A DNA stretch of 64,000 nucleotides, from positions 62,001 through 126,000 of the forward strand of contig CANLOY010000008.1 in assembly GCA_947493005.1 (NCBI GenBank), given 5' to 3'. The notes beneath the pieces are model-generated. The model was given only the letters and a program-made list of their open reading frames with translations. It did no database searches and was not told the origin of the DNA. A program made the position numbers and the translations under genes. Positions 9,952-39,178 of this stretch are shown here, piece after piece (the stretch's first letter is position 1; every line of letters starts with the position of its first letter). The DNA is from an uncultured Roseivirga sp. GTDB taxonomy: Bacteria; Bacteroidota; Bacteroidia; Cytophagales; Cyclobacteriaceae.

Positions 9952-10983
9952 TTACTGGGTTCTCTCGTAACCTTGGGCCAATTCGAGCATTAAGGCAGTA
10001 ACATCCTCTTTTCGATTAATAACTTCAGTGGCTAAAGCCTTGTGCTTTTCCTTAAGCATCACATCTTTGGATAGTCTTTGAAGAGCTGCCCAACCTTCTG
10101 GGTAAGTTCGATAACTATACAGAATCCCTAACTTAACTTCCTCCTGAAATACTCCTGCATCAAGGGAGTTGATATAAACCGATGGGGTACCTAGGAGTGC
10201 AGCTTCTGTTGACATTGTTCCACTTTCACCAATAAACAAATCTGCTGCCCAAAGTACATCATGAATTCTATCTATACCTACGCTAAGTCTATGCCTATCA
10301 TATTTGGATTCCAATTCAGTTTCAGAAGAAATAAAAACTTTATACCCAGTATTTTCAAGAAACGAGATGAGTTCATCTCTTCTTTCAATAGGGATTCCAC
10401 TTTGTCCAAAGTCATGAGAAGCATTCCAAGATACAAATCTCAAAAGAGCAAATTTATCCACATCATTCAAACCTAAATCATTTTTGATATTAGTATCAGG
10501 TTTAAAATAGTTAGGGTGTAGATAACTCATTTCCATAAAAGAATCAAAGCGCACTTGCTTCTTACCAAAATCTTTCCCAAAAGACTTTGGGTTGACTAAA
10601 ACTTCTGTAAATGGAGTATAAAGTAAGAGTTCAAGGCTTGCATGTTCAGTATCATCAAAAGCAATATGTGGCTTCTTCATCATAAAAGAAGCATGCGCAG
10701 CATATGTTGAAGCAAAACTAATAAACAAGTCTGCTCGAAAACGCTTAGCTCTTCTGTATATAAACCAGTTTGCTCTAGGTATATAGGCCAATTTAGAAAT
10801 CAACCCTTTTCCTCCTTTTCCTCTATTATGATGCTCTATCTCATAAATATCTAATAGTCTTTGCGTAATCTCTTTATCTCGCGCAACAATAAGGAAATTG
10901 TGCCCACGAGACTCCATGATTTTAATGAAATTCCTGAAGTAGTGAACGTGTGCGGGGTGGCCAATATCTAAAACTATATTCAT
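9952..10983 (-). CDS. DUF354 family glycosyltransferase-like protein
   Basis: The 343-residue protein begins MNIVLDIGHPAHVHYFRNF, the hallmark start of the DUF354 family, and has a second-half motif FIGESGTMSTEAALLGTPSVYIN. Both resemble GT-B fold enzymes such as UDP-GlcNAc 2-epimerases and MurG-like transferases, and the second motif would bind a nucleotide sugar. Its start overlaps the HisF-like gene stop by four bases, which puts it last in the main operon. In other bacteria DUF354 genes are seen in surface-glycan clusters. The actual reaction is unknown; a glycosyltransferase role is inferred from fold and context. Confidence 0.72.
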   Translation of the reverse strand: MNIVLDIGHPAHVHYFRNFIKIMESRGHNFLIVARDKEITQRLLDIYEIEHHNRGKGGKGLISKLAYIPRANWFIYRRAKRFRADLFISFASTYAAHASFMMKKPHIAFDDTEHASLELLLYTPFTEVLVNPKSFGKDFGKKQVRFDSFMEMSYLHPNYFKPDTNIKNDLGLNDVDKFALLRFVSWNASHDFGQSGIPIERRDELISFLENTGYKVFISSETELESKYDRHRLSVGIDRIHDVLWAADLFIGESGTMSTEAALLGTPSVYINSLDAGVFQEEVKLGILYSYRTYPEGWAALQRLSKDVMLKEKHKALATEVINRKEDVTALMLELAQGYERTQ

Positions 10984-11744
10984 TTTGAAATCAAGGAATC
11001 TAATTCTTCCGATGTAGGATAATTAATTAAAACTGCATTTCGCGGACCATGATATACAAAAATCGAGCCCGCAGCTGCAGCAGAAGCATGAGCATCTTGA
11101 ACAACAGCACTCACATCATTGAAAGAACCAGCTCCTCCGCAAGCAATTAAGGGTATTGTTAGTCTATCAGCAATTGTATGAACCAGTTCCTGATCATAAC
11201 CAGACATTGTTCCATCCCTATCAATAGAGTTTAAAACCACTTCTCCAGCGCCTAAATCCTGCATGCGCAAGGCGTGTTCTAATGGATCCAATTTTGTTTT
11301 TTTGGTTCCATCGTTTATATAGACATGCTTTTTACCTCTCCAATTAGATCTTACATCAATAGAAACCACAATAGTAGAACTACCAAATTCAGAAGAAGAT
11401 TCTTTAATAAAGTCAGGCCTTTTTACTGCTTCAGTATTAATTATAACTTTCTCGGCACCCGCCTTAATGATTTCCCTTATATCATCATTAGTTCTTATCC
11501 CTCCACCAACGGCAAAAGGCATATTGGCTTCATCTCCTACTTTCTTAACAAAATCCAAGGGTACCGTATGCCCTTTCCTACTTGCCATAATATCCACAAA
11601 AGCAAGTTCATCAGCTTTCAAATCGTTGAAGATCTTGACTGCGTTAATTGGGTCACCGATATAACGATGCTTATCAAACTTAACAGTCTTTACTAGCCCC
11701 AAATTTCTGAGCAGTAGAACAGGGATTACTCTAGGTCTAAACAT
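10980..11744 (-). CDS. HisF-like ammonia-channel subunit for sugar amidination (set 1)
   Basis: This 254-residue TIM barrel aligns along its length with histidine-pathway HisF (FAVGGGIRT, GAGEVVLNSIDRDGT, IACGGAG). However, the first catalytic aspartate of HisF (residue 11 in Thermotoga) is leucine here, within VIPVLLLRN, while Asp130 is kept. That pattern marks the HisF2 branch, which works with an amidotransferase and HisH to bring ammonia to a sugar acetamido group. No other histidine genes are nearby. It overlaps the downstream DUF354 gene by four bases and sits ten bases after HisH. A true histidine role is unlikely. Confidence 0.85.
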   Translation of the reverse strand: MFRPRVIPVLLLRNLGLVKTVKFDKHRYIGDPINAVKIFNDLKADELAFVDIMASRKGHTVPLDFVKKVGDEANMPFAVGGGIRTNDDIREIIKAGAEKVIINTEAVKRPDFIKESSSEFGSSTIVVSIDVRSNWRGKKHVYINDGTKKTKLDPLEHALRMQDLGAGEVVLNSIDRDGTMSGYDQELVHTIADRLTIPLIACGGAGSFNDVSAVVQDAHASAAAAGSIFVYHGPRNAVLINYPTSEELDSLISK

Positions 11745-11754
11745 TAGCTTTTAG

Positions 11755-12375
11755 TTACAAGGAGACAAAGTTAGACAATAAAGATTCACCAATATCATGG
11801 CTTTTCTCAGGATGAAACTGAAAACCAATGATATTGTCATTCGCCACCGAGGAAACAAAGTCATACTCAAAGTTTGTCTTTGTAAGCACATTCGTATCAC
11901 TATCGCTTATTACATGATAGGAATGAACAAAGTAGAACAATGAATTTTGTTGAATATCCTTCATAACAGGGTGTTCGGAACTAATTTCAATAGAATTCCA
12001 CCCCATATGAGGTACTTTATATTTTAGAGAGTTCTCAATCTTAAAGCGCACGACTTCTGCGTCCACCCATGAAAACCCTTCTGTATCCCCTTCTTCACTC
12101 TTCTTAGTCATCAACTGCATACCTAAACAAATTCCTAGAATATGCTTTTTCTCAACAAGTGCCTTCTCATTGAGTACATCCCAAAAGCCAAGTTTTTTAA
12201 GGTTCTGCACTCCTTTTTGAAAGTGTCCAACTCCTGGTAAAACAATTTTATCGGCTCTATCTAGATCTTTCGGATTATTGGAAATACTAGCATTTACACC
12301 TATTCTTTCGAACTTCTTCTGGACAGAACGTAAATTGCCCATCCCGTAATCTATGATAACGATATTAGCTGGCAT
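11755..12375 (-). CDS. HisH-like glutamine amidotransferase (set 1)
   Basis: This 206-residue class I glutaminase has an intact triad: Cys83 in GICLGMQ, and His188 with Glu190 in QFHPEKS. It also keeps the YFVHSYH segment seen in HisH. It would release ammonia from glutamine and pass it through the neighbouring HisF-like barrel to an ATP-pyrophosphatase enzyme. The gene overlaps the upstream amidotransferase by 11 bases, so the three are translated together. Its relatives in Pseudomonas (next to wbpG) and Campylobacter (next to pseA) act in acetamidino-sugar synthesis, not histidine synthesis. Confidence 0.87.
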   Translation of the reverse strand: MPANIVIIDYGMGNLRSVQKKFERIGVNASISNNPKDLDRADKIVLPGVGHFQKGVQNLKKLGFWDVLNEKALVEKKHILGICLGMQLMTKKSEEGDTEGFSWVDAEVVRFKIENSLKYKVPHMGWNSIEISSEHPVMKDIQQNSLFYFVHSYHVISDSDTNVLTKTNFEYDFVSSVANDNIIGFQFHPEKSHDIGESLLSNFVSL

Positions 12376-13513
12376 ATTTTAGGTATAATATGTGTGGCAA
12401 TATTTTTAATTTCACGGCAATCTTGATTGGAAATCTCAACATTCTTATGATTGGCAAGTGAGTTTTGAAGTCATTATGAGATTTCAAAGGCATCTTCATT
12501 ATGTTATTCCATTCCTCAGGCTTAATCTCCAACTTATTGATCGCATAGTTGACAGTAGATTCATCATATTCATAGGGTGATGATTCTATTTCTTTCAATG
12601 CATCCGATCTTTGAATTTGACCAGACCTTACTAAAGCTGACAGTTCCGTTTTTCGCTTATCAATATTGAATTTTGTTGGAAGATAATACGATTGAAAAAA
12701 CTTGGTGTATAAATTCTCATGGTGATGACCTCCGTAATATTCCCATCCTAGCTTCTCATTCAGTACTTTATCCACCTTCGACTTATTATAATCTACAAAC
12801 TCTAGTAGTCGAACTTCTCTTATGCCTTTCACCCAAATGTAGTATTGAAGTTTTAGCATAGACATATGAGGAAAACTTGTTAGCCTTCTCTTTTTTCCTA
12901 ATTTCCTATGGACATCTTTCACATATCTAGGATCCATATAGGTCCAGCTTATGGGAGAAGTCCCCTCGGTCCTAAAGGAATGACCGTTAAGAATATACTT
13001 TATTCCTTCCTTGTTAGCCACATGATATAGAACTGAGTAAATAGCATAGTCAGTTGGAATATCTGCATCTGGAACTGATGCCTTTAAAAAGGATACTTGT
13101 AGATCCTTGAACTCTTCCCAGTCTGCTACGATTGTAAACAACTCAATGTCGAGTTTCTCACATGCTTTCTTTATGTTTTGAACAGATATATCAGAGTTCC
13201 AACCATTGTCAAAATGAACAGCTAATGGTTTTAATCCAAGCTCTTTCGCCTTTAACAACGTGTATGTTGAATCTCTGCCTCCACTAATCCCTGCTATACA
13301 ATCATATTTTTTGTTTTTTCCTTTAGCTCTTATTTTAGAAAGGATAATATCGAGAGCTTTTTTTGCTTCATCACCTAATGGATGTGTTTTTTCCATCTCA
13401 TCGTGAATCTTACAGTACTTACATTCCCCCTCTTCGTCAAACCATATGTCCCCTACGGTATCATCTAAAACGCAGCGCGTACATACTTGTCCTTTCATTT
13501 CAGTATTCTCCAT
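12365..13513 (-). CDS. N-acetyl sugar amidotransferase, WbpG/PseA-like (set 1)
   Basis: This 382-residue enzyme has a zinc-type motif CTRC (11-14) and CKYC (31-34) and an ATP-pyrophosphatase loop SGGRDS (77-82). An FDNGWNSD strand follows, and the C-terminal GWEYYGGHHHENLYTKF segment is shared with its paralogs. Family members activate a sugar acetamido group with ATP and replace its oxygen with ammonia, giving an acetamidino group. Ammonia comes from the HisH/HisF pair encoded directly downstream. An alternative start at the sixth codon is possible. The sugar substrate is not readable from the sequence; a diacetamido-uronate or a nonulosonate are the main candidates. Confidence 0.87.
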   Translation of the reverse strand: MENTEMKGQVCTRCVLDDTVGDIWFDEEGECKYCKIHDEMEKTHPLGDEAKKALDIILSKIRAKGKNKKYDCIAGISGGRDSTYTLLKAKELGLKPLAVHFDNGWNSDISVQNIKKACEKLDIELFTIVADWEEFKDLQVSFLKASVPDADIPTDYAIYSVLYHVANKEGIKYILNGHSFRTEGTSPISWTYMDPRYVKDVHRKLGKKRRLTSFPHMSMLKLQYYIWVKGIREVRLLEFVDYNKSKVDKVLNEKLGWEYYGGHHHENLYTKFFQSYYLPTKFNIDKRKTELSALVRSGQIQRSDALKEIESSPYEYDESTVNYAINKLEIKPEEWNNIMKMPLKSHNDFKTHLPIIRMLRFPIKIAVKLKILPHILYLKYAS

Positions 13514-13529
13514 TGTTTAGTTTCTAAAG

Positions 13530-14687
13530 TTAGTCGTTGCGTCCTTCCATTTCATAAAAAATCTTAGGTTTCACTGGTAAAATATATTTCAAAACAGGAA
13601 TAAGTAGCTTAGTTAACTTTCTTATCATCGGATAATAAGATGGGTAATCTAGAAAGTTACGATTCTCTGCATCCCATATTTTTTTGAATTCCTCTTGAGA
13701 AATATTCAATTTCTTAAGGACATAATCCGTATCCGAATTTTCTAATTCCTTCTTATATGGTAGTTTCCCAACAATGTTCAATGCTTCCTCTCTGCTCAAC
13801 TTACCATTCAAAACCTGCGCTGAATATGTCACTTTCCTTTTATCAATGTTATACTTTTCATACATCCAGTAACCAATAGCCCACTTGGTAAATAAGTTTT
13901 CATGATGATGCTCACCATAGTACTTCCAGTCATACTTCTCTTCAAGCATACTTTGTGCTGAAGCCTTGTCGTAAGGCATAAAAATAAAAGGGGAAATCTG
14001 TTTTATTCTTCTTATATAGCCATAATAAAACAGTTGATAAAATGACAGAGTAGGATATGTTTTCAGTTTGACCTCACCAAACTTTTTATGAACATGTTTC
14101 AACTGTCTATAATCGCTATAAGTCCATTCAGTAGGCTGCTTCCCTTCTGACCTAAAATCGGAACCAATCAAAATGCTTTTAACTCCTTCTCTACTTGCTA
14201 TTTTATATAGAACTGCGTGAATCGCTTGGTCAGTCGGGTTATCAATCCAAGGCAGTCCTGCTCTCATATATGTTCTGAGAAGATCTTTTATTTCTTCATA
14301 GTCTATTACATATGTTTCTAGATCAATATTAAGCTGTTTTGTCATCTTCTTAATATTAGAAACAGCGATATCTGAACTCCAACCATTATCTAAATTAACA
14401 GCCAGTGGTCTCAGTCCAGAATGAGCAGCAAGATGCAGTAAGTAAGAACTATCAGTCCCTCCACTAACTCCTATCACGCAATCATACTCTCCTTTTGCAC
14501 CTTTCTCTTTAACTTTTGCTAAGATATTTTTCCATCGTTCATCACCCCGTGAGTCGATAGGGTTATCTTCCATCATCTTCAGCTGTATCTTAGCATAGTT
14601 CGAAACACCCTCTTGATCAAATGAGATTCCAGGCATTGTTTCATCCCAAATTCCTAACGAGCATATACGTCCAACCTCTTTCTTCAA
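13530..14687 (-). CDS. N-acetyl sugar amidotransferase paralog lacking the zinc cysteines
   Basis: The 385-residue protein is collinear with its neighbours: SGGTDS loop (75-80), LDNGWSSD, and WKYYGEHHHENLFTKW. However, the N-terminal CxxC...CxxC is reduced to one cysteine: C9-S-L-G12 and SNYA (29-32). The start is TTG, because a TAA lies three codons upstream; AAGG stands just before it. It therefore keeps the ATP-handling site but probably not the metal site. It could be an active variant with a different substrate, or a partner subunit for the other paralogs. No HisH or HisF gene is attached directly to it. Confidence 0.8.
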   Translation of the reverse strand: MKKEVGRICSLGIWDETMPGISFDQEGVSNYAKIQLKMMEDNPIDSRGDERWKNILAKVKEKGAKGEYDCVIGVSGGTDSSYLLHLAAHSGLRPLAVNLDNGWSSDIAVSNIKKMTKQLNIDLETYVIDYEEIKDLLRTYMRAGLPWIDNPTDQAIHAVLYKIASREGVKSILIGSDFRSEGKQPTEWTYSDYRQLKHVHKKFGEVKLKTYPTLSFYQLFYYGYIRRIKQISPFIFMPYDKASAQSMLEEKYDWKYYGEHHHENLFTKWAIGYWMYEKYNIDKRKVTYSAQVLNGKLSREEALNIVGKLPYKKELENSDTDYVLKKLNISQEEFKKIWDAENRNFLDYPSYYPMIRKLTKLLIPVLKYILPVKPKIFYEMEGRND

Positions 14688-14726
14688 TTTCCTTTAGTTT
14701 TATTTTAAGACTACCTACTAAAAAGC

Positions 14727-15869
14727 TCAACTGTTAACTGAATCCATAAGTAGTAATTTCGTAATTCTCCTAAACTTTATTCCTTCCGAGTGTGCCGAAA
14801 TAATATGCGCAGCACTATCGGCCTTAAGTTTACAATTAAAAACAGTTTCTGCATTCAATGTATTTATCAACTCTGCCAATGAAGAAGGTTCAAAAGTTTT
14901 TGAAGTCAACCCAAAACCATGTTTATCCATCATCTTCATCATTTCTAATGACGGGCCTGTTACACACATAATTCTTGATTGAATGGCTTCAAAAAATTTG
15001 TTTGGGAGAGCAAATTCCAAGTTTCTATTAGAGGGAGGGAAAAAACTTAAACTTATATCAAAATCATTGCAGAAGGACACCAAATCAGCGCTTTTTACTG
15101 GTTCTAGAAACTTTACATTTTGAAGCCCTCCTGCTAGTTTCTTCAGTTTTTTAAAGTATAAAGCAGAACTTTTTGACACTACTAACATTAGATTAAGCTC
15201 AAACTTCGTATCAAAGGAAGCAGCTGCTTCAATCATCAACTCAAGCTTCCTTGATGAACTACATATACCATGATGGATTATTCTAATTTTCTTATCCGAA
15301 ACTTTCTTTGGCTTTAGTTCAGCATATTGAGCGGCACTGTTTATAACCTCAACTTTTGTATCAAAATTCTGCCGATATAGATTGGCAATTCCGTCTGATA
15401 CTGTTGTAATTATGTCTGCCTTCTTGATGTACTTTTCACACAAATGTACGTAGTACCTACGAATGAAGAATCTCCAGATAAAGTTATCATTGAAATTCTC
15501 TGGAGAATATTCATGAGCATCCAAAATCACTTTTGCTCCATTGGAAAAAGTGAGGGCCAAAGGTAAAAGCCTGATTTCATGAACAACGATCAGGTCAAAC
15601 CTTCTTTCAGCAAGCTGTTTAACAAGAGCTTTTTTGTGCTTATCCCAATAATATAAGTTATACAGTCGTAGTTTGAGAAGCAGCGCAATCCTCAAAAAAT
15701 TCATAACAAACCCTAGTTTGTTAAGATGAAGAAACTCTACATCATATATAGAAGGATTTGTTCCAATGGAAGTTACTTCATACTCCTCTTTCAGCCACTT
15801 TATCTGATTTCGGGGACGTGGATCCTTGTCAAGATCTGTATATGAAACGATACATATTTTTCTTTTCAT
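14727..15869 (-). CDS. Glycosyltransferase, GT4-like
   Basis: This 380-residue protein has a two-domain GT-B layout. The N-terminal half begins ICIVSYTDLDKDPRPRNQ, a start seen in many family 4 glycosyltransferases, and holds VILDAHEYSPENF. The C-terminal half has a nucleotide-sugar-binding region ending in LPNKFFEAIQSRIMCV (the E-x7-type motif region). It lies between two amidotransferase paralogs and its start overlaps the stop of the upstream one by one base, so it is part of the operon. It likely adds one sugar to the lipid-linked repeat unit on the cytoplasmic face. Donor and acceptor are unknown. Confidence 0.82.
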   Translation of the reverse strand: MKRKICIVSYTDLDKDPRPRNQIKWLKEEYEVTSIGTNPSIYDVEFLHLNKLGFVMNFLRIALLLKLRLYNLYYWDKHKKALVKQLAERRFDLIVVHEIRLLPLALTFSNGAKVILDAHEYSPENFNDNFIWRFFIRRYYVHLCEKYIKKADIITTVSDGIANLYRQNFDTKVEVINSAAQYAELKPKKVSDKKIRIIHHGICSSSRKLELMIEAAASFDTKFELNLMLVVSKSSALYFKKLKKLAGGLQNVKFLEPVKSADLVSFCNDFDISLSFFPPSNRNLEFALPNKFFEAIQSRIMCVTGPSLEMMKMMDKHGFGLTSKTFEPSSLAELINTLNAETVFNCKLKADSAAHIISAHSEGIKFRRITKLLLMDSVNS

Positions 15870-16966: not shown

Positions 16967-16980
16967 AGTTTTTTTATTTT

Positions 16981-18300
16981 CTAAACTCTTTTCAGCTCTG
17001 GAGCCAGTAATTCCTCCTTTGACTTTTTACCTATGGCCATTACTAATCCACAGGTAAGAACGAACAAAAAGTTCGCCACTTGATACCATAGACCTTCATC
17101 AACAGTTGTTAAAATGATAAGCAATAAAAGAGATAAACCCATCTTTATAGCATCATTTCTAGATGCACTTTTGGCCAGTAAAAATAGAATGCCCAAATAA
17201 GGAAAAATCAGTAATAAAAATATGACCCACCCATAGTCTACTAACATAGTCATTAGGTAAGCATCAGTTGGACTATCATAACCCTCATAGGTCAGGTTCG
17301 TCCCATTGCCAAAAGGCATAGACAAGTCATATTGACTTGCTAAATCTATTGTTCTTCCAAATGTCAGCAATTGATCTGAGTCTGTACTATTAAAAATACT
17401 CAACAGACCAGCTAGCCTTAATAGAGGGTTGCTAAATCCAAAAGTATTATTGGATGCCAGCTGACCTAGAATAGATATTTCTTCTGCAAAAATCTGATAT
17501 ATAAAGAAAACAGGCACTAACAACACGAGTAGTAAGAAGGGCTTTTTATAGGCAACGAAAAGTGCTGTAATTATTAGAAAAGCACCAAGGGAACTCCTAA
17601 TGCCAGACAAAGCAACAACAACAATACTAAGGAGTATAAAAATCACTGTCAAAATGTTATTTTCTATTTCTTTAAAGTACATGATCAGTATAACAGCAAA
17701 GAATACTAAGGCATTAGACATATTAGACATGGCCAAAAAAGTACCAGTCACGATCTTAGCTCCTTCTTCATAATTCAATCGTGCCTGATTTATTCCGTCT
17801 TTCAGTACATAGTCAAACTCAAACAGCTCAGAAATTGATTCGCTTTGTGACTGTGCAACACCCAAAACTAGTTCTACAAAAAAACACAAGCAGACAATTT
17901 TCGCCAGAGATATTGCCTCCTTTCTTTTCAAGCTATAGACAAGACTAAAAATTAAAAGGTTAAAAAAATGATTCCTGAAAAAATAGATATCCTGAATCAC
18001 ATTTTGGCCGGTGCTAGCAGAGGCTATACCAACAGTGAGCAAGAAAATTGGAATATAAAATACTACCCCAAGATCAAAATGTGAAACCCCTTTCCCATTG
18101 AAATTATGAAGTATGAATAAAACCAATATTGCAATATTGATAGGGAAAAATATTCTATATGCAACACTTGGCAAAATAAAATAAGATGTAATCGGCAAGA
18201 AGAAGTATAGAAAGACTACATACGCAATCGGCAACATCGGTCCAATACGATACAAAAAGAATATTGGAATTATTATTAAAATTGTGACTACAAATATCAT
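16981..18300 (-). CDS. wzy: O-antigen/capsule polymerase, Wzy-like membrane protein
   Basis: This 439-residue protein is almost wholly hydrophobic, with around a dozen predicted membrane segments and one large extracytoplasmic region (about residues 275-350) before the last helices. That topology is typical of Wzy polymerases and O-antigen ligases, whose sequences are poorly conserved. Next to a Wzx-type flippase and within a repeat-unit cluster, polymerase is the more likely of the two. It would join flipped repeat units on the periplasmic side. No sequence motif distinguishes polymerase from ligase here, so the call rests on topology and neighbourhood. Confidence 0.75.
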   Translation of the reverse strand: MIFVVTILIIIPIFFLYRIGPMLPIAYVVFLYFFLPITSYFILPSVAYRIFFPINIAILVLFILHNFNGKGVSHFDLGVVFYIPIFLLTVGIASASTGQNVIQDIYFFRNHFFNLLIFSLVYSLKRKEAISLAKIVCLCFFVELVLGVAQSQSESISELFEFDYVLKDGINQARLNYEEGAKIVTGTFLAMSNMSNALVFFAVILIMYFKEIENNILTVIFILLSIVVVALSGIRSSLGAFLIITALFVAYKKPFLLLVLLVPVFFIYQIFAEEISILGQLASNNTFGFSNPLLRLAGLLSIFNSTDSDQLLTFGRTIDLASQYDLSMPFGNGTNLTYEGYDSPTDAYLMTMLVDYGWVIFLLLIFPYLGILFLLAKSASRNDAIKMGLSLLLLIILTTVDEGLWYQVANFLFVLTCGLVMAIGKKSKEELLAPELKRV

Positions 18301-18390
18301 ATTGAAACAGTGTTTTTCACCAGCCTATACAAATATTTGAAAATCAAATAGACATGTAACATTCAAAACAAAAAACATCATAAGTCAATC

Positions 18391-19692
18391 TTAATGTTCA
18401 ATATTTTTAGTTTTGAATAAGTCTAAGCTAAACCAAGGCATTTTTACAACTTTACTTGAAACATACCATGTAAGCATGAAAGTGAGGCCATTTACAATTG
18501 CGGTAGCCTGAGCAGCTCCAATAGCTCCATTTTCCATAACAAAAACATATGTCAAAGGTACATTTAAAATTGCTGAACTGATAGTAATGAAAGATACTTT
18601 GGCCGTCTTTTCCGAATAGAATAAATAGTTACAAAACATGTAATACATCCCATTAAACATAAAACCGAGTAGTAAGTAGTTTAAGAATACAGTGGACTCA
18701 TTATATTCTACAGACAATAGACGAAACACAAACGGTAAAAATAATACAAGCAACAACCATGATAATATTAAAATCCCCATAACTAAATATGTGATTTTCA
18801 CTATCTGAAATTTAGCCCAAGCATCTTCAATCGACTTTTTTAATTGCTTATAAAGCCAAGGAATAAAAGCCATATTAAACGCGTTGGTTGCCATATTAAA
18901 AACACTACTAACCTGATAAGCTACGGTATAAAGTCCCATGGTATCCAGACCTATAAGCGAGTTTATGGTCAATCTATCTGTATAGGCAATAGCAAAACCA
19001 GCAAGAGAATGAGGAATGATCGGTGCTCCATACTTAACTGCATGATTTATCAATTTCCTATCAAAGCTCCAATTAATTGTTTTATCTCTGACCATAGAAA
19101 TGTAAGAGAATACGGCCAAAACAATATTTGCTATTAAAATTGCTGAAGCTCTTCCCTCCCAACTATATAAGAGTACAACCACAAAAAATAATGACAAAAC
19201 CAGTTTTATAAGCACTAAAGAGACTTGTAGAATAGCATAGTTCTTAGCCTTATTCTGCATTTGCCATACAGTAAGCCTTACCTGAATTACTCCAAAACAC
19301 GCAGCAGTAACTAAGGAAATAAAAAGCCATTTCTCAGGCAGCTCCGTAAGATTTGATAAACCTTTTCTAAAGAGAAATGTTACCACAAGAAGTATGAGGA
19401 AGCATACAAGGGAGATTAAAAGACTATTTCCTACGTACTTAGAGAATTCGGAGTTAGACTCATCATAGAAATAACGTTTACTTATAGCGGTTGGAACGTT
19501 CAGAGTGACCAATGGTCCAAATATATTCTGCATAAGTAAAAACATGGCTACTAAGCCATATTCTGCTGGAGACAGGTAATACGATAATACAGGAAGTAAT
19601 AAAAAAGGAAGTACTGCATTTAGGAGAGTCGCCACTCCATAAATACCAGTAGATTTAATCAAATCCCCTTTAAGTAATTGGAGGACCTTCAT
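18391..19692 (-). CDS. wzx: Oligosaccharide flippase, Wzx-like
   Basis: This 433-residue protein with about twelve to fourteen membrane segments starts with a polysaccharide-synthesis (MOP superfamily) signature: STGIYGVATLLNAVLPFLLLP, then LSPAEYGLVAMF. Wzx proteins flip undecaprenyl-linked repeat units from the cytoplasmic to the periplasmic face. Its place beside the Wzy-like gene, in a locus also carrying Wzz and Wza, defines a Wzx/Wzy-dependent export route. Gaps of about 80-90 bases on each side hold no visible gene. Confidence 0.88.
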   Translation of the reverse strand: MKVLQLLKGDLIKSTGIYGVATLLNAVLPFLLLPVLSYYLSPAEYGLVAMFLLMQNIFGPLVTLNVPTAISKRYFYDESNSEFSKYVGNSLLISLVCFLILLVVTFLFRKGLSNLTELPEKWLFISLVTAACFGVIQVRLTVWQMQNKAKNYAILQVSLVLIKLVLSLFFVVVLLYSWEGRASAILIANIVLAVFSYISMVRDKTINWSFDRKLINHAVKYGAPIIPHSLAGFAIAYTDRLTINSLIGLDTMGLYTVAYQVSSVFNMATNAFNMAFIPWLYKQLKKSIEDAWAKFQIVKITYLVMGILILSWLLLVLFLPFVFRLLSVEYNESTVFLNYLLLGFMFNGMYYMFCNYLFYSEKTAKVSFITISSAILNVPLTYVFVMENGAIGAAQATAIVNGLTFMLTWYVSSKVVKMPWFSLDLFKTKNIEH

Positions 19693-19769
19693 TTAATTAA
19701 TTTTTTCGTGTTAACCAGCAACTTTCCAATATGTTTAGAGTTGTAGACATGTTCACTCCTTTCCTTTCT

Positions 19770-21275
19770 TCATTTCTTAAAAGTTGAGATGACTTTGTCC
19801 AACGGATTTGAATTTCTACCCATTAACTGTTTATCAACTTGTCGGTTTGAATTGTCAAATTGAGTCCTAATCAAGTCCGAAATCTGATCAGCCGTTATTC
19901 CTAGGTTGATATACTCACTTTCTAATTGCCCTGAAAGCAAAGTCCATCCATAGTCACTGGTAACAATAGAGTTAACACCGAAATAGCTTGCCTCTATCGC
20001 TGTTGACGAAGAATGTGTTATGTGCAAATCAATATTTGATAGAATGGTATACAAAGGAAGCTCGGAAGAAACATCAAGTTCGTAATTATGAATATCACTG
20101 TTTGCCAGCATCTCCTGAACAACAGATTTTTCATCCATCATTGATGGATGTAACCTGATTAACCAATTAAATTCATTCTGTGTATTAGCAATTACTTCTA
20201 ACGTTGAACCAATAAATTCTTTGCTACTCACATCCCAACTTAATGTTACTAAAATCCTTGAGAGGCTAGAGTTAATCTTATCATTTAAAACTTTCTCGAA
20301 GCCACTGCTCCATTCATATTTATCACTCTGCCAAAGGTTTATCAGCAGATTACCTGTAACTATACAATCATGTTGATGCAATTTCTTTGACCACTTTTCA
20401 AAACTTGTTTTCTCAAGTGATGACCAACTCAAAAAATAGTTTGGAAGTAAATTATATCCTTCCCTCGGAACATTGTTCCATGCTCCATATGCTCCATGAC
20501 TATCTCCTTGTACACCATGCTGAATATCATAGGATGGTATACCTATTCTACTGCATGCCAAATTCATCGCAAATCCATATTCTGTGTAATAGCATATAGA
20601 CATTGCAGCTCTAAATTTTCCTCTACTCAAACATTTTTGAAAATATTTGGCTAAGCATTCAATCTTCCTAACCTCTAAATGAATTGATGATTCTTCAAAC
20701 AAATATCCTAACCCAAATTCTTCTGCAATGGTTTTAACACCATCTAAACCAGGCAAATTATATCCAGTCTTTTTTATTTTAGCTGATATTATGGACTTAG
20801 CTAATATAAAATCAAGCATAGGTTGAATAAAATAAGAGCTACTGAATCTTGGTTTATAAAATGTATTAGAAGAATCAACCCTTACCAAACTCAAGTCATA
20901 TCTCTCAAGTAAAAGAGCCATTGAATCTGAAAATTTATCAAAGTACCTATCTTGAATTTTAGTAAATGAGATTCCATCCCCCAGTACAAAAACATCTGCA
21001 TCTGGTATTCTAAAATATGACTTAGAAAAATCCTTGAACGAATGATAAACCCATCTAAAAGGCCCTTTTATCAACCTTTTATACTTGTCAAACTTTGAAA
21101 CTGACAGAATAGAAGTCCCTTCGGAGATATTTAATGATTGATTTGACAATATTGCCCACAATTTCACTCTTAAAAAAGGCCATATTTCAACATCTCTGTG
21201 TTTCCATTGAGTCACAGGAAACTCCTCCTCTATTCTATTTAAAACAGATTTAATTTCTTTCTGCCTAATACTCAT
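19770..21275 (-). CDS. Putative GT-B type surface-glycan glycosyltransferase, unrecognised family
   Basis: I do not recognise this 501-residue protein by family name. Its second half has YDIQHGVQGDSHGAYG, then LIRLHPSM, then HITHSSSTAIEASYFG. The order QHG...RLHP...HSSxxxEA is shared with capsule-type glycosyltransferases such as KpsS/LipB-like and CDP-glycerol-type transferases, where it forms the nucleotide-sugar site. The first half is charged and has no clear motif or signal peptide, so it should be cytoplasmic or membrane-associated. Located between the flippase and the PtmA-like reductase, it probably transfers a sugar, possibly a CMP-activated one. That substrate idea is inference. Confidence 0.65.
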   Translation of the reverse strand: MSIRQKEIKSVLNRIEEEFPVTQWKHRDVEIWPFLRVKLWAILSNQSLNISEGTSILSVSKFDKYKRLIKGPFRWVYHSFKDFSKSYFRIPDADVFVLGDGISFTKIQDRYFDKFSDSMALLLERYDLSLVRVDSSNTFYKPRFSSSYFIQPMLDFILAKSIISAKIKKTGYNLPGLDGVKTIAEEFGLGYLFEESSIHLEVRKIECLAKYFQKCLSRGKFRAAMSICYYTEYGFAMNLACSRIGIPSYDIQHGVQGDSHGAYGAWNNVPREGYNLLPNYFLSWSSLEKTSFEKWSKKLHQHDCIVTGNLLINLWQSDKYEWSSGFEKVLNDKINSSLSRILVTLSWDVSSKEFIGSTLEVIANTQNEFNWLIRLHPSMMDEKSVVQEMLANSDIHNYELDVSSELPLYTILSNIDLHITHSSSTAIEASYFGVNSIVTSDYGWTLLSGQLESEYINLGITADQISDLIRTQFDNSNRQVDKQLMGRNSNPLDKVISTFKK

Positions 21276-21296
21276 GAGATATTATTGTATAGGAAA

Positions 21297-22037
21297 TCAA
21301 ATAGCAGTCCAGCCTCCATCTACCATCAGGTTATGGCCTGTTATATAGCTAGCATTGTCAGATAACAGGAAGGCTACGGGTGGAGCAATTTCTTCGGGTT
21401 TGGCCATCCGTTTTAAAGGTACTTTGTGTTCAAATTGTTCAACGAACTTCGCATTCTGATTATTAAAAACCCCCCCCGGTGAGACACAGTTAATTCTCAC
21501 TCCAAATGAACCATAATAAGAAGCCAGGTAACGAGTGAAGTTTACTACCCCTCCTTTAATAGCGGAATAAGCTGCAGGAGAGGTCATACCTCCGGTATTC
21601 TCATAAACAGTAAAATCATTCCCTACAACACCATAGATTGAAGAGACATTAATGACTGCACCTGATTTCTGTTTTTTCATAAAAGGCAAGACCAGTTGGC
21701 ATAACTGAAAACAAGTGTTCAGTTGCATTTCCACATTTTTACTCCAGCTCTCAAGAGAAACGTCTTCAAATTTATCTCCCCAATCTGAAGTTCTTGGGTA
21801 TGCATTATTGACCAAACCATCAATACGACCAAATTTATCAAGTACCATCTTAATAAGTCCCTCGACTTCAGTCGGATTTGTAATATCACAAGTGAATTGA
21901 TTTTCTCTTGATTCTTTAAAAGCAATATCCACCTCTACTAGAGTAACAGATTCTTTGAGTAAGAAATCTCTAATGGCAGACCCAATAAGTCCTTCGCTCC
22001 CCGTCAGAATTACTACTTTGTTTTTTAGTCCTTTCAT
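21297..22037 (-). CDS. Short-chain dehydrogenase/reductase, PtmA-like
   Basis: The 246-residue classical SDR has GSEGLIGSA for cofactor binding, VNNAYPRTSDWG, the catalytic serine in INVSSIYGVVG, and YSAIKGG (YxxxK), ending in ITGHNLMVDGGW. The NAYPR and SIYG segments are like those of PtmA, the oxidoreductase linked to nonulosonate synthesis in Campylobacter flagellin glycosylation. The ATG at 22037 overlaps the TGA of the upstream gene (TGATG), so a TTG three bases earlier is not favoured. Presence in the same operon as NeuB and CMP-synthetase genes supports a role in that branch. The step it performs is not known. Confidence 0.83.
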   Translation of the reverse strand: MKGLKNKVVILTGSEGLIGSAIRDFLLKESVTLVEVDIAFKESRENQFTCDITNPTEVEGLIKMVLDKFGRIDGLVNNAYPRTSDWGDKFEDVSLESWSKNVEMQLNTCFQLCQLVLPFMKKQKSGAVINVSSIYGVVGNDFTVYENTGGMTSPAAYSAIKGGVVNFTRYLASYYGSFGVRINCVSPGGVFNNQNAKFVEQFEHKVPLKRMAKPEEIAPPVAFLLSDNASYITGHNLMVDGGWTAI

Positions 22038-22708
22038 CAATCTAAATGAAAATAATAGTCTATGGTTGGTTTTTTATTTTCTATTATCCTGTTGTCCGGA
22101 TAATTACCAAGGGCAATTTGATTGTCTTCTAAGTCAGTATCAATCAAATAAGATCTTGCTCCAACTATACAGTTTTCCCCAAAATTGCAGTCTCCTAGAA
22201 CGGATGAATTAGAATAAACAATTGTCTTTTCAGAAAAATTTGGATATTTTCCATCTATCAATGAACCAATGGTTACCCCTTGATATATTACTAAATAATC
22301 CGAGTAACTGGCATTGCCAACAATTGTACCTAATGGATGTATAAATAAAAATACTTCTGGCAATTCAATACTATAAAATGCATCTATGCCAAACATCGTC
22401 TTATTCAATAAAAATGCTTTGGATGCGGCATTTTCATCACCCAACTTATAAAGTTCATTTGACAGAAGATATAAAAATGAACAATAATGATCACCATTCA
22501 AATGATTAAAATAAACTTCATCATTATGGTTTCGATAGTAACGAGATTTAATTTTTACAAAACATCTCTCAATCCTTTGAAAAACCTTCTCTATGACCTT
22601 TTCAGTCTGTAGCCTGAACTCCTGATGATCTCCATCCGGAAAGTGATTTTCTATCTGTTTAGAAACATATATTACAGATTCTTTTGGAGTTAAAGAGCTC
22701 GCGAGCAT
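22037..22708 (-). CDS. Serine acetyltransferase-like left-handed beta-helix acyltransferase
   Basis: The 223-residue protein has a helical N-terminal part and a C-terminal hexapeptide-repeat helix (FIHPLGTIVGNASYSDYLVIYQGVTIGS, then VLGDCNFGENCIVGARSYL). The HPLG and YQGVTIG segments resemble CysE-type acetyltransferases, though the canonical GGTGK-like end is missing and the tail is different. It abuts the HisF-like gene of set 2 and the PtmA-like gene. It more likely N- or O-acylates a sugar than serine, for example the amino group made by the perosamine synthase or aminotransferase. This is inferred from location. Confidence 0.72.
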   Translation of the reverse strand: MLASSLTPKESVIYVSKQIENHFPDGDHQEFRLQTEKVIEKVFQRIERCFVKIKSRYYRNHNDEVYFNHLNGDHYCSFLYLLSNELYKLGDENAASKAFLLNKTMFGIDAFYSIELPEVFLFIHPLGTIVGNASYSDYLVIYQGVTIGSLIDGKYPNFSEKTIVYSNSSVLGDCNFGENCIVGARSYLIDTDLEDNQIALGNYPDNRIIENKKPTIDYYFHLD

Positions 22709-22710
22709 TT

Positions 22711-23469
22711 TTATACTTTTTTAATATCAATTTGATGGTTCATCAAGTAAGCTCTTGCTCTAATGGGGTTATTGTCTCCAAAATGATAAATACTCGCCAT
22801 TGCTAAAGCTCCAACCTCCGTCTCTGTATAGGCATCTTCTAAATGTTTAAAGTTACCAGCACCCCCACATGCCACGACAGGTACATTCACAGATCGATTA
22901 ACCAGTTTGATAAGTTCATGATCATAACCATTCATCTTACCATCATTTGAAATATCGTTTAAAAAAATCTCTCCTGCTCCTAGAGTTTCCATTTTTTGAA
23001 TGTGATCGATTAAACTCACATTGCATTTTATTCTACCAGAGTTTTTATAAAGAACATATTCACCCTCTTCCTTTTTAACATCTATACCCAATACTATGCA
23101 TTGACTGCCAAACATCTTGGCTCCCTCTCGAATTAAATCAGATTGAGTATATGCAGCAGAGTTGATAACTACTTTGTCAGCTCCACTATTTAATAATTTC
23201 CGAATCGTCTGAATTGAATTGATACCTCCTCCAATAGTAAGTGGCATAAAGCATTCCTTAGATACCTTCTCAATGATTTCAGCGTTTGTATCTCTACTCT
23301 CATTAGTGGCATCAATATCCAGAAATACTAATTCGTCTACATATTGAGAATTATAAACTCTAGAAGCAAAAACCGGGTCTCCAGTATCTCTATAATTATC
23401 AAAGTTGACACCTTTTACCATTCTACCTTTTCTCAGTAAAAGAGTAGGAATAATTCTCTTTTTTAGCAT
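22711..23469 (-). CDS. HisF-like ammonia-channel subunit for sugar amidination (set 2)
   Basis: This 252-residue TIM barrel is homologous to the set 1 copy and to HisF. Residue 11, the catalytic aspartate of true HisF, is leucine here (RIIPTLLLRKG), while Asp130 remains in LGIDVKK. GAGEIFLNDISNDG and ACGGAG are conserved. It overlaps the HisH-like gene by seven bases. As in set 1, the pattern suggests a scaffold that channels ammonia rather than a cyclase making imidazole glycerol phosphate. Its sequence differs widely from the set 1 copy, so recent tandem duplication is unlikely. Confidence 0.86.
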   Translation of the reverse strand: MLKKRIIPTLLLRKGRMVKGVNFDNYRDTGDPVFASRVYNSQYVDELVFLDIDATNESRDTNAEIIEKVSKECFMPLTIGGGINSIQTIRKLLNSGADKVVINSAAYTQSDLIREGAKMFGSQCIVLGIDVKKEEGEYVLYKNSGRIKCNVSLIDHIQKMETLGAGEIFLNDISNDGKMNGYDHELIKLVNRSVNVPVVACGGAGNFKHLEDAYTETEVGALAMASIYHFGDNNPIRARAYLMNHQIDIKKV

Positions 23470-24080
23470 GCCTTCATTCTTGAAAAATTATCCAACATTC
23501 TTAAACCTTGTTTCTGACTCTTTTCTGGGTGGAATTGTGTCCCAATAACATTGCCTTTTTCATTAGCTACTATTGAAACAAACTCATTTCCGTAGTCGGT
23601 AACTGCCACAATATTCTCTTCACTTTTTGTAGCAAAGTGATACGAATGTACAAAGTACACATCTGCACTTTTTTTAACGCCTTCAAATAAGCCTGGGTCC
23701 CTTTTTAAGTTAATTCCATTCCATCCAATATGTGGAATCCGATACCCTTCAGCTTTCATTAACTCAATTGTTCCAGGAATTAGCCCAAGACCTTCAGTTT
23801 CTGCTACTTCTGTACCTTTATCTGCCAAAAGCTGCATACCAAGGCAAATTCCTAACAAAGGTTTACCTGAATCAGCAAAAGTTTTAATAGGATCAAAGTA
23901 ACCCTTATCTTTGATACTACTCATTGCTTTAGGAAATGCTCCAACACCTGGTATAATCAAGTGCGTAATGCCATTAAAATTTTCAACAGAATCAATGACC
24001 GAACTTTCTAAACCCAAAAAGGTCAGAGAATTGGTTACGGACTTCAAGTTGCCCATACCATAGTCGAGAATACCAATCAT
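23463..24080 (-). CDS. HisH-like glutamine amidotransferase (set 2)
   Basis: This 205-residue glutaminase keeps Cys79 in GICLGMQ, His184 and Glu186 in QFHPEKS, and the YFVHSYH segment. The gene overlaps the amidotransferase upstream by four bases (ATGA) and the HisF-like gene downstream by seven, so the three are tightly coupled in translation. It should provide ammonia from glutamine to the amidotransferase at 24077-25246. It is distinct from the set 1 HisH copy. Confidence 0.88.
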   Translation of the reverse strand: MIGILDYGMGNLKSVTNSLTFLGLESSVIDSVENFNGITHLIIPGVGAFPKAMSSIKDKGYFDPIKTFADSGKPLLGICLGMQLLADKGTEVAETEGLGLIPGTIELMKAEGYRIPHIGWNGINLKRDPGLFEGVKKSADVYFVHSYHFATKSEENIVAVTDYGNEFVSIVANEKGNVIGTQFHPEKSQKQGLRMLDNFSRMKAC

Positions 24081-25246
24081 TGCTTTCTGTTGTCCTCTCT
24101 ATACCATTCGTCCATGTCGTGAACTTTTTCCATCAGAGGCATATTCTCAAAATCTGGTTCAAATGGGGGTACTACAAATTTCCTTACCGTATCATAAAAC
24201 TCCTTCTCGGTCATTCCCATGTATTCTAAGAAAACTTGTAGGGACTGAGGCTTTTTACCTTCATACTCATCAATCCATTTTTGAGCTTCCTCTGTACTCA
24301 TGCGCCCATTACGGATTTCAAAGTTGACTAGTTGTGTCACCCGACCATATCCTCTTTTGAGATACTTAATATAATCCCGAGTACCTTGCATCCAGCATTC
24401 TACCTTAGCATATTCTTGGTTGATTGTCTCCGGAACTCCCTCTAGTTCATCTCCATCCCATCCAAGTTCATCCATGATGATTTTAGTTTGTTTTTTGTAG
24501 TCCCAAGGAATGAAACTACCTAGACAAACTGAATAGTAATCCATCTTTCTTAATTCAGAGAGTTCCGGGTAAGTATAAGGCAACAGGTCTCTCCTATCGA
24601 TTGGATCATCTTCTCTATTAATCATTCCATGCATATCATCTGCAGTTATCCCCAGATTTCTATACATATTGAATTTTTCCTCGTCCTCCCACTCAATAAG
24701 ATCATCTTCATAAGTATAGTATGATGACATTTCTGCTAATGGTTCTCCCCATAAAATCAGCGGAACATTAAACTTAAGTGCCATTTGAAGGGGGTAGGAA
24801 TAAATTCCTGTATGACAGTGCCAACAAAAGTCAGTCTTTCTATTAAAAGCTTCGAACATGAGCTTCTTAACAATATCCCAATTGGGAGTGAAATTGATAA
24901 AATCCACTCCTAATTGCTTGATCATTCTTCCCGTTTTGTCTTCATGTTTTCCACGCATAAAGCCGTGATCAAACCTTACAACCAGAGGCTTAATATTATA
25001 CTCTTTTATCAAGTAATAAAGTGTATAAGTACTGTCTTTACCTCCACTAAAAGGAACTATGCAATCGTAATCGTATTTCCCTCTATATTTCTCTATAACT
25101 TCATCTAATTTCAATTTTCTTTTGTCCCAATCAACATTAGTTTGTTTGAATTCAGATGTCTTACACATGCTGCAACTTGAGCCATCCTGAGCTATTACAA
25201 GCGTCTCATAAGTCTCAGGAAGTAAACAGTTAGTACATTTCTTCAT
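24077..25246 (-). CDS. N-acetyl sugar amidotransferase of a different subtype (set 2)
   Basis: The 389-residue protein has CTNC (4-7), CSMC (25-28) and an SGGKDS ATP-pyrophosphatase loop (67-72). After an FDHGFM strand it has an extra FCWHCH motif (141-145) that the three other paralogs lack. Its C-terminal half (GWDGDELEGVPE, CWMQGTRDYIKYLKRGYGR) also differs from theirs. It belongs to the same broad WbpG/PseA/PtmG family and should make an acetamidino sugar with its linked HisH and HisF. The nearby CMP-nonulosonate synthetase, NeuB and PtmA-like genes suggest a nonulosonic acid or its precursor as substrate; this is inference. Confidence 0.87.
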   Translation of the reverse strand: MKKCTNCLLPETYETLVIAQDGSSCSMCKTSEFKQTNVDWDKRKLKLDEVIEKYRGKYDYDCIVPFSGGKDSTYTLYYLIKEYNIKPLVVRFDHGFMRGKHEDKTGRMIKQLGVDFINFTPNWDIVKKLMFEAFNRKTDFCWHCHTGIYSYPLQMALKFNVPLILWGEPLAEMSSYYTYEDDLIEWEDEEKFNMYRNLGITADDMHGMINREDDPIDRRDLLPYTYPELSELRKMDYYSVCLGSFIPWDYKKQTKIIMDELGWDGDELEGVPETINQEYAKVECWMQGTRDYIKYLKRGYGRVTQLVNFEIRNGRMSTEEAQKWIDEYEGKKPQSLQVFLEYMGMTEKEFYDTVRKFVVPPFEPDFENMPLMEKVHDMDEWYREDNRKQ

Positions 25247-26563: not shown

Positions 26564-27276
26564 TCAAGTAATCCTTTCTCTCTTTGAATTAGTAAATGTT
26601 CTATAATACTAAAGTCGACCATATCATCAATTTCAAAAGACTTCCACTTAGGCACAATATAGCCTAGGGCATCTTGATGGTAAAAGTTTTTTCTCTCTTG
26701 GAGATCCGCTACGTATGAAGCATAAATTGTACCCTCATAAAAATAATAGTCATCGATGTCCTGTCTTCGTTTTACAACAAAATTGCTCTTTGATCTCATT
26801 AGCCCATTGTCTAATGTCACCACAAAATCTGGGCTTGCTCCTTCAACAAAGGATACTCCTGCTATACTTCTTGCACTCTTATGGTTAACCAATGATTCGA
26901 TAGAGGAGTCAATATCTTTCACTTCTCTTAATGGTGAAGTAGGTTCTAACATCATTAAAAGATCGAATTCTTTACCTTCCTTATTTTTCATATAATCCAG
27001 CGCATGCAACAGGACATCCATTGATGTACTTGTATCTTCGGCTAATTTATCTGGTCTTAAAAAAGGTACGCGAGCACCAAGCTTTTCAGCTACTTCTTTA
27101 ATTTCTGAAGAATCTGTCGAAACAATAACTTCATCTAGATACTCACTGGCAAGTGCAGTTTCTATAGTCCAAGCAATCAGAGGCTTGCCATGAATATTCT
27201 TAATATTCTTTCTTGGTATACCTTTACTCCCTCCTCTAGCTGGTATAATTCCAATGATTTTCTTCCCCCTATACAT
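26560..27276 (-). CDS. CMP-nonulosonate (acylneuraminate) cytidylyltransferase
   Basis: This 238-residue single-domain enzyme has IGIIPARGGSKGIPRKNI (the CTP-binding loop of NeuA/LegF/PseF enzymes), STDSSEI, LMMLEPTSPLR and FEIDDMVDF near the end. It lacks the C-terminal hydrolase domain that some NeuA proteins carry. It activates a nonulosonic acid with CTP to the CMP sugar used by glycosyltransferases. It lies in the same operon as NeuB and between an aminotransferase and Gmd. Which acid it uses (sialic, legionaminic, pseudaminic or another) cannot be decided from sequence alone. Confidence 0.9.
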   Translation of the reverse strand: MYRGKKIIGIIPARGGSKGIPRKNIKNIHGKPLIAWTIETALASEYLDEVIVSTDSSEIKEVAEKLGARVPFLRPDKLAEDTSTSMDVLLHALDYMKNKEGKEFDLLMMLEPTSPLREVKDIDSSIESLVNHKSARSIAGVSFVEGASPDFVVTLDNGLMRSKSNFVVKRRQDIDDYYFYEGTIYASYVADLQERKNFYHQDALGYIVPKWKSFEIDDMVDFSIIEHLLIQREKGLLE

Positions 27277-39168: not shown

Positions 39169-39178
39169 TAATCTGATT

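Follow-up and report, generated by a model that had tools for sequence, protein, structure and literature searches.

Four sugar amidotransferases of two classes and their class-bound HisH/HisF ammonia donors in a predicted surface polysaccharide operon of an uncultured Roseivirga

The window analysed here, a 64,000-nucleotide stretch of the 4.88 Mb genome of an uncultured Roseivirga sp. (G000:C8:62001-126000), contains a tight minus-strand glycan operon (9952-36760) that encodes four proteins of the TIGR03573 (WbuX) family of N-acetyl sugar amidotransferases (NASATs), together with two HisH and two HisF proteins. Based on sequence comparison, we propose that this operon probably specifies a Wzx/Wzy-type surface polysaccharide with at least two amidino sugars in its repeat unit, and that two classes of NASAT, each with its own HisH/HisF pair, would form them. 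Set 1 consists of NASAT1, a HisH and a HisF, set 2 of NASAT2 and a second such pair, while two additional paralogs, NASATx and NASAT3, lie on the same strand as both sets (Table 1; NASAT1, NASATx, NASAT3 and NASAT2 denote the genes at 12365, 13530, 15869 and 24077, respectively). An earlier note on this DNA had counted two complete amidotransferase-HisH-HisF sets and two further paralogs, and the coordinates and family cut-offs agree with that count.

Two deep amidotransferase classes meet in one operon

The reading frames of all four NASATs are open and full length, their products score above the TIGR03573 cut-off (203.2 bits; Table 1) and all possess the SGGXDS PP-loop; NASAT1, NASAT3 and NASAT2 also carry the zinc tetracysteine (CXXC..CXXC), both family features being taken from passages of PMC10607449. 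For comparison, the window was joined to fetched sets of loci in which open reading frames were called and NASAT, HisH and HisF proteins were found by profile. These loci were chosen for holding NASATs, many of them by likeness to the set 2 enzyme, and the proportions given below are not rates in nature. A FastTree phylogeny of 201 of the 211 NASATs (those of 270-480 residues) contained two deep classes. The WbuX class (70 rows) holds E. coli O145 WbuX along with NASAT1, NASATx and NASAT3, which form three branches within it, and the nonulosonate class (131 rows) holds NASAT2, a pair of NASATs encoded on contig C6 of the host genome, and two Campylobacter coli proteins that we labelled PseA-like and PtmG-like. 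NASAT2 falls outside the PseA-like and PtmG-like groups, in a 57-row clade of its own with a support of 98 (FastTree only, with reference labels assigned here). Pairwise identity among NASAT1, NASATx and NASAT3 is 38-42%, and NASAT2 is 18-24% identical to them; these values and the separate branches rule out a recent tandem duplication. When PDB sequences were searched, the Legionella pneumophila enzyme LpNASAT (8WEX) was the only NASAT among the matches (4.4e-20 for NASAT2, 6.9e-07 for NASAT1).

The neighbouring sugar genes differ by class as well. Among loci with enough flanking sequence, the window and L099 (the C6 pair) omitted, NeuB was found within 9 kb at 56 of 73 nonulosonate-class loci versus 2 of 51 WbuX-class loci, and a WbpB-like gene at 14 of 51 WbuX-class loci versus none of 73 nonulosonate-class loci. 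The earlier note had assigned the set 2 enzyme to a different subtype, which the tree bears out, and had predicted at least two amidination reactions; that such reactions would act on different sugar classes is well backed by the phylogeny, the class-specific HisH/HisF proteins described below and the sugar pathways predicted for the operon. The outcome that it had named as fatal to its view, all four enzymes in one clade with another known reaction, is not what was found, as the enzymes occupy four branches of a tree built without WbpG and LegS sequences.

The ammonia donors follow the amidotransferase class

Both HisF proteins of the window match PF00977 (1.6e-65 and 2.1e-67). The set 2 protein scores 264 bits against NF038364 (AglZ/HisF2), below the cut-off of 310 that the set 1 protein passes, and both miss the cut-off of WbuZ (TIGR03572, 299.7 bits) at 279.4 (set 1) and 293.9 bits (set 2). 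Asp11 and Asp130 are the catalytic residues of the HisF cyclase. Asp11 is replaced by leucine in both window proteins, as in HisF of the E. coli O145 locus, and Asp130 is kept in the window pair; the histidine-pathway HisF of the host genome, which lies with the normal histidine genes on contig C3, keeps both. Both HisH proteins retain the Cys-His-Glu triad, and the two pairs should release and channel ammonia rather than make histidine precursors. Loss of Asp11 is not universal at NASAT loci: 13 aligned HisF rows combine Asp11 with glutamate at position 130, and HisF proteins of this type lie beside nonulosonate-class NASATs at L113:13732-14595 and L114:18313-19176.

Each HisF and HisH protein took the class of its closest NASAT, provided that one lay no more than 4 kb away; 142 of 163 HisF and 144 of 158 HisH passed the length and distance limits. 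Partner class changed once on the HisF tree (n = 142; shuffled mean 44.1) and once on the HisH tree (n = 144; shuffled mean 43.6), with none of 500 shuffles as low in either case, and both trees split exactly by class (support 100 for HisF). Since each NASAT class thus has its own donor lineage, two HisH/HisF sets are expected where both classes meet, and the two pairs of the window, judged by their sequences, are not redundant. Consistent with this expectation, 8 of 174 merged loci, nearly all chosen for holding a NASAT, contain two NASATs and two HisF proteins and come from Pseudomonadota as well as the phylum of the window, so that the earlier statement of a single set per known locus, taken as a rule, goes too far. 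All eight mix clades, five of them joining the WbuX and nonulosonate classes (L023, L113, L114, L192, L193) and three joining clades within the nonulosonate class (L037, L044, L120). Another 22 loci have two NASATs and one HisF; three of these include long proteins of 635-693 residues (L148, L166, L194), and 17 of the remaining 19 hold a single class.

A zinc-less enzyme and the ownership of the set 1 donor

NASATx has C-G-S-A in place of the four zinc-site cysteines that a portion of PMC10607449 describes for 8WEX, and is for this reason filed as a zinc-less relative rather than a canonical member of the family. The tetracysteine is lost in all six members of its clade (support 100/100), whereas the PP-loop is retained, as are 40 of 43 class-conserved columns. 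Nor is the tetracysteine complete in 16 of the 64 other WbuX-class rows, which lack at least one of its cysteines; one further row does not cover the site. Seven of these 16 have C-T-S-Y in its place, namely the NASATs of L140, L142, L143, L145, L165, L172 and L173, each the sole NASAT of its fetched locus.

HisF of set 1 (10980) belongs to a clade (support 100/98) with the HisF proteins of exactly the five other NASATx loci (L112, L148, L149, L151, L166), and the rows nearest to HisH of set 1 (11755), from L149, L112, L151 and L148, point in the same direction without a supported branch. L112 also encodes a NASAT1-like enzyme, so the case for donor ownership rests on the other four loci. This grouping suggests that the set 1 donor descends with NASATx, although it is NASAT1 that adjoins it. 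Set 1 is therefore not an ancestral trio, and on these phylogenetic grounds NASAT1 and NASAT3 look like guests on the NASATx donor. We do not favour a view of NASATx as a pseudoenzyme, in light of its PP-loop, its conserved columns and its own HisF lineage.

DUF354 is a marker neighbour of the NASATx clade: where the flank suffices, it was found within 9 kb at all four other NASATx-type loci, against 2 of 47 other WbuX-class loci and none of 73 nonulosonate-class loci. The simpler layout of L166, a locus from the window's bacterial family (WbpE-WbpD-WbpB-glycosyltransferase-HisH-HisF-NASATx-DUF354), suggests a 2,3-diacetamido uronic acid as the NASATx substrate; WbpB is near only one of the four NASATx loci with enough flank. 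An AlphaFold model of NASATx, built on nine sequences only (mean pLDDT 82.8), had 8WEX as its best fold match (8.8e-13; TM-score of about 0.6, 16% identity, root-mean-square deviation of 7.8 A), and by this model the enzyme shares a kind of fold with 8WEX, and no more.

The set 2 module and its clade

The FCWHCH motif of NASAT2 marks 55 of the 57 rows of its clade, with FCWFCH in one more, and the same place varies in the rest of the nonulosonate class (e.g. NEWPNH, MNWHAH; SCWHCH in 6 of 74 rows). The motif had been described as an extra one; it is present, but as the clade-specific form of a site shared by nonulosonate-class enzymes. Among loci with enough flank, a class-III aminotransferase occurs within 9 kb at 26 of 33 of the FCWHCH clade, 3 of 40 others of the nonulosonate class and none of 51 of the WbuX class. 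If short flanks are allowed, it accompanies 35 of 56 FCWHCH-clade loci, in records of 12 named phyla (taken from record titles, many being metagenome bins). An acetyltransferase of the 22037 type is found at 7 of 33 FCWHCH-clade loci and at none of 91 others. Seven loci besides the window have both aminotransferase and acetyltransferase within this distance, and six of them also the dehydrogenase. We suggest that this module would add an amino group and acetylate it, and that NASAT2 would then amidinate the same group.

The starting hexose of the nonulosonate may differ from that of the standard legionaminate route, since the dehydratase at 27286 is of the GDP-mannose type and the DegT protein at 28321 resembles perosamine synthase, both of which speak against that route; these two genes may instead make a separate perosamine. 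An 8-amino-3,5,7,8,9-pentadeoxynonulosonate is mentioned for Flexibacter maritimus in PMC3210612. Legionella non-1 serogroups are credited, in a reference title and in a passage of PMC3766260, with a nonulosonate that bears 5-acetamidino and 7-acetamido groups and lacks an 8-amino group, and an 8-amino nonulosonate as the principal reading of set 2 was set aside because Legionella serogroup 6, with a very similar gene row, is so credited.

Proposed mechanism and points against it

In the mechanism that we propose, HisH would free ammonia from glutamine, HisF without its cyclase Asp would channel the ammonia to an ATP-using NASAT, and the NASAT would convert an N-acetyl group of the sugar into an acetamidino group, a positively charged amidine. 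NASAT2 would be served by the set 2 pair (22711/23463), and NASATx, NASAT1 and NASAT3 would share the set 1 pair. The WbuX-class substrates are likely to be 2-acetamido or 2,3-diacetamido hexuronic acids supplied by the WbpB/D/E-like genes, and that of set 2 is likely to be a CMP-nonulosonate. A fuller scheme, in which the repeat has about four sugars and a separate NASAT amidinates every one of them, three being enzymes of the WbuX class on the donor of zinc-less NASATx and the fourth acting on a nonulosonate whose amidinated nitrogen is installed late (by class-III aminotransferase, dehydrogenase and acetyltransferase; e.g. 8-amino), to give a polymer rich in positive charge, strikes us as improbable.

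Several observations weigh against the proposal of two classes with dedicated donors. The sharing of one HisH/HisF pair by three WbuX-class enzymes is deduced from the absence of other pairs beside them, and with a WbpB-like gene near only 14 of 51 WbuX-class loci, the substrate at the rest is a guess. The class split on the HisH tree has a support of only 79. Two classes share a single set in L116/L117 and in L156 (the latter at a contig end), three WbuX-class NASATs accompany two HisF and one HisH in L101/L102 and L103/L104, and one NASAT accompanies two HisF in L043 and L047; one donor per class is thus not a strict rule. Finally, the open-licence literature searched yielded no characterised member of the FCWHCH clade.

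Alternative readings

Some WbuX-class paralogs might, with the same ATP and ammonia chemistry, form a uronamide by amidating a uronic acid at its C6 carboxyl instead of making amidines, an alternative that we consider unlikely. PMC3210612 lists with Vibrio vulnificus YJ016 a polysaccharide whose repeat combines one uronamide with one acetimidoyl uronic acid, and three V. vulnificus NASATs appear in an alignment of PMC10607449, their strain unstated there; the tie to the YJ016 polysaccharide is drawn here. The window has hexuronic-acid genes, and NASATx, with zinc ligands lost and its catalytic frame kept, would be compatible with this reading. Opposed to this, E. coli O145 WbuX, the only enzyme of its class in the tree whose chemistry has been reported, is associated with an acetamidino sugar, and no uronamide-forming NASAT turned up in the open-licence literature searched, in which no search was aimed at uronamides.

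It is quite unlikely that the paralogs are redundant or decaying, so that only one WbuX-class and the nonulosonate-class enzyme work. Loss of three of the four zinc cysteines from NASATx, and the presence of a single HisH/HisF pair for three WbuX-class genes, could be taken in this sense, but none of the four frames is interrupted or truncated, the zinc-less state is common to the whole NASATx clade along with its PP-loop, conserved columns and HisF lineage, and cysteines are missing elsewhere in the class, including in the seven C-T-S-Y enzymes that are the sole NASATs of their fetched loci. Very doubtful, too, is the interchangeability of the two donor sets as a mere reflection of two sugar modules merged by horizontal transfer: although the modules look mobile, judging by the phyla in which FCWHCH-clade NASATs and class-III aminotransferases lie together, interchangeable donors predict scrambled partner classes on the HisF and HisH trees, where one change was seen on each, and frequent mixed WbuX/nonulosonate loci with a single pair, of which there are two, and module merging is itself compatible with class specificity.

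Comparison with known systems

Pseudomonas aeruginosa, in which we take the gene order to be wbpG-hisH-hisF with wbpA/B/D/E (for ManNAc3NAmA), offers one parallel, as the window likewise has WbpB/D/E-like genes and a UDP-GlcNAc 6-dehydrogenase gene beside WbuX-class NASATs. The window differs in having three such NASATs and in the lack of an Epimerase_2 match among the 30 window proteins scanned with Pfam; WbpG, whose role is used here as a passage of PMC10607449 gives it, is itself outside the tree. The E. coli O145 O-antigen locus (wbuX-hisH-hisF, with HisF of the AglZ/HisF2 type; L-FucNAm) similarly has a WbuX-class NASAT with, directly after it, HisH and an Asp11-less HisF, but only one NASAT and one set, and its WbuX, tied to an acetamidino sugar by text and a reference title in PMC10607449, is 31-41% identical to the three WbuX-class enzymes of the window.

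On the nonulosonate side, Campylobacter PseA and PtmG (Pse5Ac7Am and Leg5Am7Ac) belong to the same class as NASAT2 and offer a case of two amidinating enzymes within a single organism; C. jejuni 12664 is said, in a passage of PMC7099621, to encode all genes for both amidino nonulosonate glycans. NASAT2 differs in belonging to the FCWHCH clade and shares 33% and 26% identity with the C. coli proteins labelled here as PseA-like and PtmG-like, respectively. A gene table for L. pneumophila serogroups 6 and 12 (PMC3694923) lists consecutively a glutamate-1-semialdehyde aminomutase, an acylneuraminate cytidylyltransferase, an acetyltransferase, HisF, HisH and an 'LPS (lipopolysaccharide) biosynthesis protein', which we infer to be a NASAT, with DegT and NeuB nearby. 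This row resembles set 2 of the window, but in the portion of that source consulted there is one set, and the module is assigned no role. An FCWHCH-clade NASAT and a class-III aminotransferase also occur together in a Legionella sp. locus (L022). LpNASAT has the zinc tetracysteine that NASATx lacks, and its aligned stretch is without FCWHCH.

Sugars with a single amidine and their loci are already known (in passages of PMC10607449 and PMC3210612). In Methanococcus maripaludis, deletion of MMP1081 is stated, as unpublished work in the review PMC2952790, to remove the acetamidino group and the next sugar, which suggests that amidination may gate chain building. No account of an operon that combines several amidotransferases with donors specific to their classes was found in the open-licence literature searched.

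Rarity among genomes and further amidotransferases of the host

A NASAT over the curated cut-off was found in 13 of 98 genomes of the family, at least 54 of 395 of the phylum and at least 41 of 398 in a sample around a Polaromonas genome (G492), the first two counts including the window's genome and the third including G492. Two or more within 30 kb occurred in 1 of 97, at least 12 of 394 and at least 5 of 397 other genomes (G492 also has two), and three within 30 kb in no other genome of the family, at least two of the phylum and none among the matches listed for the G492 sample. Four in one locus were found in the window's genome only among the matches listed in the three surveys, the maximum elsewhere being three. 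These multi-NASAT counts were read by eye from the listed places, the family and phylum samples partly overlap, and the two larger surveys (about 400 genomes each) scored up to five candidates per genome, which makes their counts lower bounds; the six NASATs of the host genome gave five matches.

Besides the four of the window, the host genome encodes two more NASATs and a third HisH/HisF pair at G000:C6:83252-86911 (L099:7040-10912), a tandem nonulosonate-class pair around one HisH/HisF, one member having an SGARDS PP-loop. The PP-loop of one member is likewise altered in the pairs of L098 and L115 (SGARDS) and L118 (SGSQDS), a pair in L095 has SGTGDD, and the pair of L108 has SGGRDS; such pairs are possibly hetero-oligomeric enzymes. 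A lone HisF-like protein (G000:C1:542905-543591; L100) has serine at the place of Asp11, and no NASAT was found in the fetched stretch. Long frames with a WbuX match of 122-145 bits, below the cut-off, were seen in the same family, of about 1400 residues in G046, G066, G090 and G009 and of about 665-700 residues in G001, G064 and G085; a long gene of this kind adjoins the DUF354 and NASATx genes in L148 and L166.

Operon layout

Gaps between neighbouring genes across 9952-36760 range from -11 to 90 bases (Table 1). From 36760 downward, the order is an export-type gene, WbpB/D-like genes, the nonulosonate block with set 2, the flippase and putative polymerase genes, and last the block of WbuX-class genes that includes set 1; immediately upstream of the operon are the WbpE-like gene and that of the UDP-GlcNAc 6-dehydrogenase (38032-41511). 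The NusG-domain protein at the operon head may be an UpxY-like antiterminator, to judge by its sequence, presumably with a regulator-like gene beside it (36845-37868). The glycosyltransferase between NASATx and NASAT3 has a relative in L166 that adjoins WbpB/D/E-like genes, HisH/HisF and NASATx. The probable acetyltransferase at 22037..22708 gave no Pfam or NCBIfam match.

Table 1. Features of the glycan operon and its upstream genes, in window coordinates.
Position	Strand	Feature	Evidence
9952..10983	-	DUF354 (PF04007) protein, likely glycosyltransferase	Pfam 74.5 bits
10980..11744	-	HisF of set 1, AglZ/HisF2 family, predicted WbuX-class ammonia channel subunit, Asp11 to Leu	NF038364 339.8 bits (cut-off 310)
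11755..12375	-	HisH of set 1, glutaminase subunit, Cys-His-Glu triad kept	TIGR01855 242.3 bits (cut-off 105.4)
12365..13513	-	NASAT1 (set 1), WbuX class, tetracysteine and PP-loop intact	TIGR03573 260.3 bits; nearest L112_9185, 52-54%
13530..14687	-	NASATx, WbuX class, without three of four zinc cysteines, PP-loop SGGTDS intact	TIGR03573 222.5 bits
14727..15869	-	Glycosyltransferase family 4 type protein, between two NASATs	PF13439 31.4 bits; relative in L166
15869..16966	-	NASAT3, WbuX class, third branch, motifs intact	TIGR03573 277.7 bits; tree
16981..18300	-	Putative Wzy-like polymerase	No family match; hydrophobic sequence and position beside flippase
18391..19692	-	Wzx flippase	PF01943 98.4 bits
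21297..22040	-	Short-chain dehydrogenase of set 2 module	PF13561 154.8 bits
22037..22708	-	Serine-acetyltransferase-like protein of set 2 module, probable acetyltransferase	Serine acetyltransferases among PDB matches, weak (9.4e-06 at best)
22711..23469	-	HisF of set 2, predicted nonulosonate-class ammonia channel subunit, Asp11 to Leu	PF00977 227.4 bits
23463..24080	-	HisH of set 2, Cys-His-Glu triad kept	TIGR01855 222.5 bits
24077..25246	-	NASAT2 (set 2), nonulosonate class, FCWHCH clade	TIGR03573 307.4 bits; 81% to L120_12059
25253..26563	-	Class-III aminotransferase (glutamate-1-semialdehyde-aminomutase-like)	PF00202 127.4 bits; PDB 2e7u 3.9e-45
26560..27276	-	CMP-nonulosonate synthetase	PF02348 96.1 bits; TIGR03584 171.7 bits, below cut-off 205.7
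27286..28320	-	GDP-mannose 4,6-dehydratase	TIGR01472 568.4 bits (cut-off 415); PDB 7kf3 7e-147
28321..29409	-	DegT aminotransferase, LegC/perosamine-synthase-like	TIGR04181 359 bits, below 420; PDB 7b0m 4.9e-85, 3bn1 8.2e-84
30258..31304	-	NeuB-type nonulosonate synthase	PF03102 290.8 bits; TIGR03569 394.7, just below 399.65
32465..33436	-	WbpB-like C3 dehydrogenase for diamino-uronic acids	PDB 3oa2 WbpB 2.3e-109
33433..34026	-	3-N-acetyltransferase, presumably WbpD/WlbB-like	PDB 3mqg (LPS biosynthesis acetyltransferase) 3.4e-64
34073	-	Export-type gene	Named from its own sequence only
36845-37381		NusG-domain protein at operon head	NusG domain match
38032..39168	-	WbpE-like aminotransferase	PDB WbpE 3nu7 8.2e-86, behind 7b0d 3e-95
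40234..41511	-	UDP-N-acetylglucosamine 6-dehydrogenase (TviB-like)	NF011729 560.4 bits, below 592; TIGR03026 395.7 (cut-off 189.8)

Implications

This locus follows a recurrent plan on a larger scale, and its unexpected parts are the class-bound donors and the zinc-less enzyme that owns the first of them. As a guide to such loci, the number of NASAT classes, rather than of NASAT copies, predicts the number of HisH/HisF pairs, with the exceptions given above. The existence of a zinc-less NASAT clade calls the role of the tetracysteine into question, and the tie between the FCWHCH clade and a class-III aminotransferase provides a lead to an unassigned step in nonulosonate synthesis. If the proposed amidinations are true, the presence of several amidines per polymer would alter the charge of the cell surface, its binding of cations and its recognition.

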